From: Sphingorhabdus sp. EL138
GTDB lineage: Bacteria > Pseudomonadota > Alphaproteobacteria > Sphingomonadales > Sphingomonadaceae
Reading direction: 5' to 3'
NCBI RefSeq assembly: GCF_945890115.1
Contig: NZ_CAMDCK010000001.1
Location: forward strand, 62,001 to 126,000
DNA length: 64,000 nt
The notes beneath the pieces are model-generated. The model was not told the origin of the DNA and searched no databases. It saw only the letters and a list, made by a program, of their open reading frames with translations. Below are positions 2,281 through 63,864 of this stretch, in pieces; within the stretch, counting starts at the first letter, position 1; each line of letters opens with the position of its first letter. A program made the position numbers and the translations under genes.

Positions 2281-3774
2281 ATGGCATTAGCTCCGCGCCT
2301 CGACCTCCGCCAAAGCCAGTCGCTGGTCATGACGCCGCAGCTGCAGCAAGCGATTAAGCTGTTGGCGCTTTCGTCGCTCGAAATCGAAGCCTTCATCGCC
2401 GAAGAGATTGAACGCAACCCGGTGCTTGACGCGGGCGGCGGCGATTCCTTTTCCGACACGCCAGTTGATACATTCCCGCAAGCCACAATTGCCGAGAGCA
2501 ACGAACGCGGCAGTGACGAGATATTAGGCAATGACAGCCACGCTGCCTCCGACGCGCTGGACGTCGATTTCGGGGCGGAAACCTTCTATCATGATGCGCC
2601 ATCCGACAGCGTGGGCGGCACAGACGGGATGCTGGGCCTGTCGGGCAGCGCGCTGTCCAGCGGTAGCTTTGACGGCGACGGCCCAGATTTTGACAGCTTT
2701 GCAGCTCGCGACGGTAATTTACGCGAACATTTAATGGCGCAGGCGGGTGCGGGCCTTTCGGGTCGCCAGCTTTTTCTGGTGCAACAGATTATCGAACATA
2801 TTGAACCCACTGGTTATGTGGGTGAAGATTTGCTGGCCATGGCGCAAAGGCTTAATGTGCCCTTGGCCGAAGCAGAAGCTGCGCTGACCGAGCTTCAGCG
2901 CTTTGACCCCACGGGGGTTGGTGCACGCAATCTTGCCGAGTGCCTTGCGCTGCAGGCCAAGGATGCGGACCGCTATGACCCATGCATGGCAAGGCTGATC
3001 GGCAATCTCGATTTGGTCGCCAAGGGCGCGTTTGACCAATTGAAACGCATGTGCCGCGTCGATGATGAAGATCTGCGCGATATGTTGATAGAACTGCGCG
3101 GCTATGATCCAAAGCCAGGGTGCCGTTTTGAAAGCGAAGACAGCATGGCGGTCACACCGGACATCTATGTGACACCTCGCGGCGATGGTTGGTCGATTGA
3201 ATTGAACAGCGCTAACCTACCGCGGTTGCTTATCAACCGAAGCTATGTGGCTGAACTTGGACAGGATAAGGCCACTAAGGCTTGGCTCAGCGATTGCATG
3301 GCCGATGCCAATTGGCTGATCAAGGCCATGGACCAACGGCAGCGCACGATCGTCAAGGTCGCGACCGAAATCGTGAAGCAGCAAGAAGGGTTTTTCCGGC
3401 GCGGCGTTGCCCATTTGCGGCCCTTGACGCTGCGCCAGGTCGCAGACGCCATTGAAATGCATGAATCTACCGTCAGCCGGGTAACGAGCAACAAATATCT
3501 GCATTGCGGACGCGGGCTGTTTGACCTCAAATATTTCTTTTCATCCGGTGTTCAGTCCGCCGATGGCGAAGGCGCATCTGCCGAAGCGATCAAAAGCCAT
3601 ATCAAATCGCTGATTGAGGCCGAGGGCGATAAAATCCTGTCCGACGATATGTTGGTCGAACTGCTAACGGCAAAGGGCTTTGACATTGCCCGCCGGACGG
3701 TCGCCAAATATCGTGAGGCGATGGGTATTGGTTCGTCGGTGCAGCGTCGTCGGCAAAAGAAAATGGGCCGTTAA
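2281..3774 (+). CDS. rpoN: RNA polymerase sigma-54 factor
   Basis: A 497-residue sigma-54. The N-terminal activator-interacting region is Gln/Leu rich (RLDLRQSQSLVMTPQLQQAI). An acidic linker (about residues 60-150) follows, then the core-binding and HTH regions (LTLRQVADAIEMHESTVSRVTSNKYL), and the C-terminal RpoN box ARRTVAKYREAMGI, which reads the -24 element. It directs transcription with AAA+ activators, often for nitrogen and flagellar genes. It starts 29 bp after lptB. A candidate sigma-54 promoter occurs in this window before flgC. Its stop codon directly abuts the stop of the convergent nucleotidyltransferase gene. Confidence 0.97.
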   Translation: MALAPRLDLRQSQSLVMTPQLQQAIKLLALSSLEIEAFIAEEIERNPVLDAGGGDSFSDTPVDTFPQATIAESNERGSDEILGNDSHAASDALDVDFGAETFYHDAPSDSVGGTDGMLGLSGSALSSGSFDGDGPDFDSFAARDGNLREHLMAQAGAGLSGRQLFLVQQIIEHIEPTGYVGEDLLAMAQRLNVPLAEAEAALTELQRFDPTGVGARNLAECLALQAKDADRYDPCMARLIGNLDLVAKGAFDQLKRMCRVDDEDLRDMLIELRGYDPKPGCRFESEDSMAVTPDIYVTPRGDGWSIELNSANLPRLLINRSYVAELGQDKATKAWLSDCMADANWLIKAMDQRQRTIVKVATEIVKQQEGFFRRGVAHLRPLTLRQVADAIEMHESTVSRVTSNKYLHCGRGLFDLKYFFSSGVQSADGEGASAEAIKSHIKSLIEAEGDKILSDDMLVELLTAKGFDIARRTVAKYREAMGIGSSVQRRRQKKMGR

Positions 3775-59063: not shown

Positions 59064-59113
59064 AAATCTTCCTATGAGGGATGCACCACGGCTCATTTCG
59101 AAAGGTGTCCCGC

Positions 59114-61960: not shown

Positions 61961-62272
61961 ATGAGCATTATCCCCCCCGATGATTTCGAAGTCCCTGCCG
62001 CGGGCCTGCGCATGGTCATTGCCGCGCCCGAGGGGGTCACCACGGACCGCAACAACATCAAGGCGGTCCGGATAGGCCACGCCGCTGGATTTTCTCTGTT
62101 CACCGCAGCGACAGAACCGGGCGTTTGGCAATTTGCCGGCTGCGGTATTGAGTGGCTCTGCCGCGATGGAAATATTGAGCGGCAATCCGTGGCGGAGGCC
62201 ATGGTCGAAGTTCTGGCGCCCGGGGTCATCGCGATTGCCTGCCGGTCAGCTAACTCAGGGGTAGGAAAATGA
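61961..62272 (+). CDS. Unknown protein in the flagellar operon
   Basis: A 103-residue protein with a strong AAGGAG Shine-Dalgarno 8 nt before ATG and only 9 bp after flhB, so it is certainly expressed with it. No signal peptide or TM helix is visible. The sequence contains GLRMVIAAPEGVTTDRNNIK and IEWLCRDGNIERQSVAEAMVEVLAPGVIAIACRS. It is not FlaF or FlbT, which are the usual flagellin regulators, and I do not recognise a family. A flagellar assembly, chaperone or regulatory role is inference from position. Confidence 0.7.
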   Translation: MSIIPPDDFEVPAAGLRMVIAAPEGVTTDRNNIKAVRIGHAAGFSLFTAATEPGVWQFAGCGIEWLCRDGNIERQSVAEAMVEVLAPGVIAIACRSANSGVGK

Positions 62273-62282
62273 CCGGCTGAAT

Positions 62283-62335
62283 AATATATTAGCTGCGACA
62301 CCGAAAAAATGAGCAGCCGAAAAAAATATATTAGC
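62283..62335 (+). promoter_or_regulatory. Direct repeats AATATATTAGC, 42 bp apart, upstream of flagellin
   Basis: AATATATTAGC occurs at 62283-62293 and again at 62325-62335, exactly 42 bp (four helical turns) apart. Between them CCGAAAAAA occurs twice (62301 and 62318). The AT-rich block sits about 130-180 bp before the flagellin start in the 188-bp leader. The spacing fits two sites for one regulator on the same DNA face. No confident sigma-28 or sigma-54 promoter is seen. Confidence 0.5.
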
Positions 62336-62419
62336 ATTCGAACCGTTCCGCTGAATTCTTTTCCTATGAGCTTCTTAGAGCCCATTTCCGGGCTTTCGGT
62401 TGGTTGCCCGATGTAACCA

Positions 62420-62437
62420 CCTCACAAGAATGTGAGG
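62420..62437 (+). promoter_or_regulatory. Hairpin in the flagellin 5' leader
   Basis: CCTCACA-AGAA-TGTGAGG is a perfect 7-bp stem with a 4-nt loop, ending 23 nt before the flagellin ATG and 11-12 nt before its AAGGA site. A second hairpin AGCCC-ATTTCC-GGGCT lies at 62379-62394. Flagellin leaders in Caulobacter are targets of FlbT, so post-transcriptional control is possible. Confidence 0.55.
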
Positions 62438-62460
62438 ACACTCCTAGAAAGGAATTTACT

Positions 62461-63288
62461 ATGGCTTTTTCTGTTAACACGAACTCCAGCGCGCTTGCTG
62501 CCCTCCAGAACCTGAACAACACCCAGAACGAACTTAACTCCACTCAACAGCGGATTAACACCGGTCTTAAGGTGAGCTCAGCCAAGGATGACAGCTCTGC
62601 ATTCGTCATCGCCCAGAACCTGCGTTCAGACCTCAGCGGAATGAAGTCGGTCACCTCGTCGCTCAATCGTGCGAAGAGCGTGCTCGATGTCACTCTAAAT
62701 GGTGCCACGCAGATTTCGGACCTGATGAACCAGATGCAGGCGAAGGCACTTGAAGCCAGCGATGCGGGCCTTGACACCGCCAGCCGCACAGCCCTCAATC
62801 TCGACTTCGTGGCACTCCAGAGCCAGATTGAGACTGTTATTGATTCGTCGGACTTCAACGGTTCTAATTTGCTTAAAGGACCTGCAGCTACCGGCAATTC
62901 GCTGAGCGCTCTGCAGTCGATCCAGGGATCGTCGACTTTGGTCGTCGCTAACATGGATATCGAAACCATGTTGGGCACCGCCCTGACGGGCGACATCTCG
63001 ACTGGTGCCAACGCGACAACCCAGTTGGGTTTGCTCGAAACAGCCAAGGCCGCGATGGCTGGAAAGCTCAACACGCTTGGTTCGGCCGCACGTCAGGTGG
63101 ATTCGCAGTTGACCTTCACCGCGAAGCTCGCTGATGCAATCAAGAGCGGTATCGGCACTCTTGTCGATGCTGACTTGGCCGCGGAATCGGCAAACTTGCA
63201 AGCCCTGCAGCTCAAGCAGCAGCTGGGTGTTCAGGCCTTGTCGATTGCGAACCAGTCGCCGCAGGCAATCTCGTCGCTGTTCCGTTAA
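62461..63288 (+). CDS. Flagellin
   Basis: A 275-residue flagellin from ATG 62461, with AGAAAGGA upstream; the track start at 62404 is in the leader. D0/D1 domains are clear: N-terminal MAFSVNTNSSALAALQNLNNTQNELNSTQQRINTGLKVSSAKDDSS and C-terminal LVDADLAAESANLQALQLKQQLGVQALSIANQSPQAISSLFR. The centre (about residues 140-190) is short, so outer D2/D3 domains are absent, as in Caulobacter FljK-type flagellins. It forms the filament. A strong terminator follows. Confidence 0.97.
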   Translation: MAFSVNTNSSALAALQNLNNTQNELNSTQQRINTGLKVSSAKDDSSAFVIAQNLRSDLSGMKSVTSSLNRAKSVLDVTLNGATQISDLMNQMQAKALEASDAGLDTASRTALNLDFVALQSQIETVIDSSDFNGSNLLKGPAATGNSLSALQSIQGSSTLVVANMDIETMLGTALTGDISTGANATTQLGLLETAKAAMAGKLNTLGSAARQVDSQLTFTAKLADAIKSGIGTLVDADLAAESANLQALQLKQQLGVQALSIANQSPQAISSLFR

Positions 63289-63810: not shown

Positions 63811-63864
63811 AGTTTTGCTCCTCAAATACCCTTAGTGGCATCTCACTTTCCTATAATAGGAAGG

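Follow-up and report, generated by a model that had tools for sequence, protein, structure and literature searches.

Upstream of the flagellin gene in the window (the whole stretch of 64,000 nucleotides that was analysed), the direct repeat consists of the A/T-rich box in front of the flagellin promoter, duplicated back to back. Judged from sequence, this promoter is rather probably read by a divergent sigma factor encoded in the flagellar cluster and not by sigma-54. The earlier note had reported that AATATATTAGC is repeated with a start-to-start distance of 42 bp and that CCGAAAAAA is also repeated between the copies, and both observations are real. AATATATTAGC lies at 62283-62293 and 62325-62335, and CCGAAAAAA at 62301 and 62317, 16 bp apart. 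The search for AATATATTAGC near other flagellar genes that the note proposed gave nothing further, these being the only two copies in the whole 2.31-Mb genome. Self-alignment shows that each copy forms the core of one half of a longer, imperfect tandem duplication on the forward strand, in which two units of about 41 bp abut, the distal unit 1 (GGAAAATGACCGGCTGAATAATATATTAGCTGCGACACCG, 62264-62303) and the proximal unit 2 (AAAAAATGAGCAGCCGAAAAAAATATATTAGCATTCGAACCG, 62304-62345). The 2-bp difference in their length lies in an A-tract, and the offset between the units is 40 bp for the 5' blocks and 42 bp for the 3' blocks. The best self-alignment of the leader scores 19, while 4000 dinucleotide shuffles have a mean of 8.1 and only one of them reaches 19. 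Note that such repeats are not unique: the leader tile ranks fourth for self-alignment among 1211 tiles in 120 kb, and five pairs of exact 11-mers within 100 bp occur in the window. As for the note's remark that no coding feature explains the repeats, they do lie outside annotated genes, except that unit 1 takes in the stop codon of a 103-aa ORF (61961-62272, forward strand). This small ORF stands between flhB and the flagellin gene and is conserved in the sister MAG G069 (67% aa identity).

Is the spacing itself a signal? The earlier note took it as precisely four turns of the helix. We rejected exact helical phasing as the main signal, as the block offsets are 40, 42 and 16 bp and the relatives have one box. 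A spacing of 42 bp can arise without selection, because back-to-back duplication of a unit of about 41 bp yields such a spacing. The cooperative binding by one regulator that the note also proposed is possible.

The repeats do belong to the flagellin promoter region. The proposed -10-like element of this promoter lies at 62357-62371 on the forward strand, with its core TCCTATGA at 62362-62369, 99 bp before the ATG of the flagellin gene (62461-63288, forward strand; 275 aa, Pfam Flagellin_N and Flagellin_C). It would be the counterpart of the relatives' TTTCTTYCCAGAATGAA. In 23 other sphingomonad flagellin leaders a single A/T-rich box is centred about 37 bp upstream of a TYCC-A-AAT element, which itself stands about 100 bp before the start codon. 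The same arrangement, a TTTCTTYCCAGAATGAA-like sequence about 100 bp before the ATG with the A/T box about 37 bp further upstream, is found in the 21 same-family genomes with a box leader. The A/T content peaks at 0.88 at -37 in the 23 relatives' leaders and at 0.65 at -36 over 42 flagellar TCC-box sites of this genome and its relatives, and the own proximal copy is 100% A/T from -38 to -35, counted from TCCTATGA at 62362. The A/T peak of unit 2, about 36 bp upstream of TCCTAT, thus coincides with the positionally conserved box of the relatives, while that of unit 1 lies about 77 bp upstream and the 23 relatives' leaders have no second peak at -77. The conservation in orthologous leaders on which the earlier note had staked its proposal is found for one box, at the proximal position, and is missing for the second in these relatives.

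An A/T-rich tract at a fixed position immediately upstream of a promoter is what an UP element looks like. The UP element is the site of the alpha-CTD, at about -38 to -59, and displaced UP subsites exist. The proximal copy would be the box that promoters of this class keep in front of them. It lies about 36 bp ahead of TCCTATGA and at about -50 from the inferred start, where either an UP-type element contacted by the alpha subunit of RNA polymerase or a site for a proximal activator would fit. Four turns further upstream, the distal copy would probably be a second, weaker contact on the same face of the DNA. The likeness to UP elements extends to the A/T-rich tract at about -50 before a -10-like TATAAT element and to an extra site an integral number of turns upstream; the difference is that the sigma factor here is by inference not RpoD, and the alpha-CTD contact is putative.

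Flagellins from other genera and families of the order match this one at 43-63% identity along most of its length; a search at E 1e-30 through the 44 further genomes of the window genome's GTDB genus did not find it. Many same-genus genomes carry a distant flagellin, whose leader shows a sigma-28-like site by eye. The flagellar cluster may have been acquired or differentially lost. In the sister MAG G069 the flagellin is 70% and FlhB 91% identical. The distal copy is retained there, with 30 of 36 columns of the distal unit identical, a level of conservation that does not exceed that of the coding DNA next to it. The rest of this leader is absent from the assembly, as contig C23 breaks off directly behind the distal copy and C180 begins 11 bases ahead of the ATG.

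The own flagellin element, TCCTATGAG, is a weak form. A matrix of the relatives' flagellin boxes failed to locate it and led instead to the own-genome form TCCTATRA. Because the matrix scores the element poorly, we assign it from the motif of its own genome, from how far it lies from the A/T box and from its distance to the ATG. TCCTATRA has 11 matches in 120 kb around the window, all in the 44-kb flagellar cluster and 10 of them intergenic, and two matches in 465 kb of control DNA. There are 38 matches in the genome, so that 11 of 38 fall in the flagellar cluster, which is 2% of the genome. Alone it is less specific: the 273 kb of flagellar regions from genomes lacking the divergent sigma factor contain six matches. 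Other occurrences of TCCTATGA and its like in the window are TCCTATGA at 59070-59077 upstream of flgB/flgC-type genes, with GACTATTTTTCC centred 34 bp upstream, and TCCTATAA at 63849-63856 at the start of a flagellar-cluster ORF of 632 aa, also present in the sister contig L036 (both on the forward strand). Pairs or groups of TCCTATRA are also seen outside the flagellar cluster, at G000:C2:106425-107661, G000:C14:5286-42243 and G000:C23:8505-8782. The motif TCCTATAAT was spotted in the window genome first and then tested on other genomes. It has 14 matches in 164 kb of sigma-carrying flagellar clusters (five in this genome, two in G231 and seven in G237), none in the flagellar clusters (273 kb) of six genomes that lack the divergent sigma factor, and none in 669 kb of non-flagellar DNA. 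For sigma-54 sites the picture is reversed, with one in the sigma-carrying flagellar clusters and 15 in the clusters without the divergent sigma factor. In the relatives' clusters TYCCANAAT is hardly enriched outside flagellin, and TCCTANAAT is enriched.

Downstream of the promoter element, the 5' leader of the flagellin gene (62377-62453, forward strand) is predicted to fold into four hairpins, with a folding energy of -30.6 kcal/mol and a z-score of -3.5. They lie at 62377-62396, 62401-62419, 62420-62437 (CCTCACA-AGAA-TGTGAGG) and 62442-62453; two of the four have AGAA loops, and the last overlaps the ribosome-binding site. Inverted repeats of a similar kind with AGAA loops are visible in the relatives' leaders, Rfam gives no match, and FlaF is encoded in the flagellar cluster. 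The predicted structures are likely to serve post-transcriptional control.

Which sigma factor reads the promoter? RpoN is encoded in the window (2281-3774, forward strand; Pfam Sigma54_AID, Sigma54_CBD and Sigma54_DBD). Both sigma-54 and sigma-28 promoters at the flagellin gene were scanned for and rejected: the -24/-12 element (TGGCAC-N5-TTGC) has no match upstream of flagellin and one relaxed match in the 44-kb cluster, and TAAA-N15-GCCGATAA has no match in the flagellar region. The genome encodes four sigma-70-family proteins, and three of them were classed as RpoD-, RpoH- and ECF-like solely from their size and region-2 score. A divergent member of the family lies in the flagellar cluster near flaF (G000:C1:141907-142863; L004:8907-9863). 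It scores 21 bits against the NCBIfam FliA model, whose cut-off is 189.6, and is just at the Pfam cut-off for region 2. Among its orthologues, Sigma70_r2 is found in 19 of 19 and Sigma70_r4 in 5 of 19. The family alignment shows region 2 and a region-4-like helix, and the profile matches region 4 of RpoS in the PDB with an E-value of 6e-6. In a Foldseek search with the predicted model, sigma factors were ranked on top, with E > 0.05, which is suggestive only. With both region 2 and region 4 found, we place the protein in the sigma-70 family.

All 21 family genomes that have a box leader encode the divergent sigma factor. Two family genomes, G123 and G127, lack it, and their leaders look like sigma-54 promoters; nor does it occur in 20 genomes from other families of the order or in 10 from the same genus. 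One genome, G109, has a weak sigma match only and no box; in the possibly incomplete MAG G069 the factor was not found. The association of sigma factor and leader may reflect one evolutionary event. On a 408-kb plasmid of Erythrobacter aureus YH-07 (L249/L250, NZ_CP031358.1), a flagellar cluster lies together with the same sigma factor and a degenerate FlbD; in the stretch read there is a box leader, TCCTATAAT occurs at two flagellar sites and a sigma-54 site is absent. A Sphingosinicella plasmid (L248, NZ_CP035502.1) carries a sigma homologue, 62% identical to the protein of G452, outside a flagellar cluster, and the one strand scanned has no TCCTANAAT. We infer the link between sigma factor and promoter from co-occurrence within one order, and likewise the start site, the sigma factor that would read the promoter, the protein that would bind the box and whatever role the distal copy may have.

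FlbD is a textbook activator of sigma-54. Then what has become of it in genomes with the divergent sigma factor? The own FlbD relative (G000:C1:148021-149352, minus strand; L004:15021-16352) has GAFDGA for GAFTGA and RN for the Asp-Glu of Walker B (LRNID), so it lacks both features by which a sigma-54 activator is recognised. The GAFTGA and Walker B residues are lost in all eight full-length FlbD proteins of sigma-carrying genomes, namely the own one, those of G075, G169, G201, G226, G231 and G343, and that of E. aureus YH-07 (NZ_CP031358), which is annotated as 'sigma-54 dependent transcriptional regulator'. The FlbD of the sister MAG G069 has likewise lost the GAFTGA threonine and the Walker B acidic pair. 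The variants of GAFTGA are GAFDGA, GAFEGA, GAFPGA, GDFPGA and GAFAAA, or the loop is deleted. In 10 of the 11 other sigma carriers (G091, G114, G141, G177, G193, G237, G251, G283, G354 and G452) the whole AAA+ domain is gone, and what is left is a short protein that has the recognition helix of FlbD and lacks a Walker A motif; in G452 an apparent receiver is joined directly to the helix. The eleventh, G329, has no FlbD remnant in the stretches read. The DNA-binding helix is thus kept in sigma carriers, and FlbD is canonical in 16 of 16 cases from genomes without the divergent sigma factor. Together with the co-occurrence of the sigma factor, this decay suggests that another sigma factor has taken the place of sigma-54. 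Several relatives (L234, L235, L236, L237, L239 and others) share a promoter that combines an A/T box (about -36) and an FlbD-type palindrome (about -18) with TCCTATAATG. By analogy with Caulobacter, where FlbD represses fliF, this shared arrangement suggests repression by the FlbD remnant.

There is a further question of what the copies are for. Since the relatives have a single box, the distal copy may do nothing. That only the proximal copy matters, the distal one being a functionless lineage-specific tandem duplication and the phasing a by-product of the duplicated length, is a possible though less favoured reading. It accords with units that abut exactly, a block spacing that varies between 40 and 42, the single A/T peak in relatives and a conservation not above that of neighbouring coding DNA, but the distal core TATATTAGC was kept in G069 despite flagellins that are only 70% identical. 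The copies might instead be two sites for an FlbD-type regulator working as an ordinary DNA-binding activator without ATPase. The conserved recognition helix, the GGCAAAATTTGCC-like palindromes that several further flagellar promoters of this genome carry at about -34 to -36 and the resemblance of TTAGC to the half-site TTTGCC speak for such sites. However, we think it unlikely that the copies are of this kind, for no ftr-type FlbD palindrome with up to four mismatches occurs in the 130 bp upstream of the flagellin element. The proximal box is distinct from the FlbD palindrome because no such palindrome stands upstream of this flagellin gene and because relatives carry both, separately within one promoter, at about -36 for the box and -16 to -20 for the palindrome.

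A T-A-step-rich sequence with A-tracts could also be where an H-NS-like silencer such as MucR nucleates, or could curve the DNA, but the A-tracts are 16 bp apart and out of helical phase and the box keeps a fixed place relative to TCCTAT in many genomes, which makes this very improbable. Least credible is the enhancer suggested by the earlier note, if taken as a sigma-54 enhancer bound by FlbD as in Caulobacter. RpoN is present, and the cluster encodes FliX and a relative of FlbD, yet there is no -24/-12 site here and the own FlbD has lost its sigma-54 contact loop and Walker B pair. We keep to a duplicated box before a promoter that would be read by the cluster sigma factor.

How does this arrangement compare with known systems? 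With the FlbD/ftr/sigma-54 promoters of middle and late flagellar genes in Caulobacter (PMC3930126, PMC3096577) it shares an FlbD relative beside fliN, FliX, FlaF, RpoN, palindromic ftr-like sites and a hairpin-rich flagellin leader. It differs in having the TCCTATAAT element in place of a -24/-12 site, and in an FlbD that has lost either GAFTGA and Walker B or the AAA+ domain altogether. Like the FliA (sigma-28) flagellin promoters, it would have a dedicated sigma-70-family factor for flagellar genes, but the cluster factor falls far below the FliA cut-off and the promoter is not TAAAG-N11-GCCGATAA. Caulobacter NtrC is an enhancer-binding protein that lacks GAFTGA and is active at sigma-70 promoters (PMC10274813, PMC12421884); that protein is a nitrogen regulator, while here FlbD is concerned, Walker B is also lost and the AAA+ domain is deleted in some genomes. 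In Sphingomonas sp. WG (PMC8921679) the Caulobacter scheme was assumed, no fliA was found and FlbD was called a sigma-54 activator. A search that covered the open literature found no paper on the divergent sigma factor or on FlbD decay in sphingomonads, so that the system is new only provisionally.

Taken more widely, we lean towards a rewired regulon in a large group of sphingomonads, in which a divergent sigma-70-family factor, encoded in the flagellar cluster in the window genome, would read TCCTATAAT promoters in place of sigma-54. FlbD would have lost its ATPase function and survived simply as a DNA-binding regulator, with the AAA+ domain lost whole in some lineages, and the lineage of the window would have doubled its flagellin upstream box. 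If this is true, the Caulobacter scheme fails in the lineages examined here. The graded series of FlbD proteins, from intact through a dead AAA+ domain to its deletion, would then show an enhancer-binding protein turning into an ordinary transcription factor after a sigma switch, and a concrete promoter motif is now available for testing the regulon.
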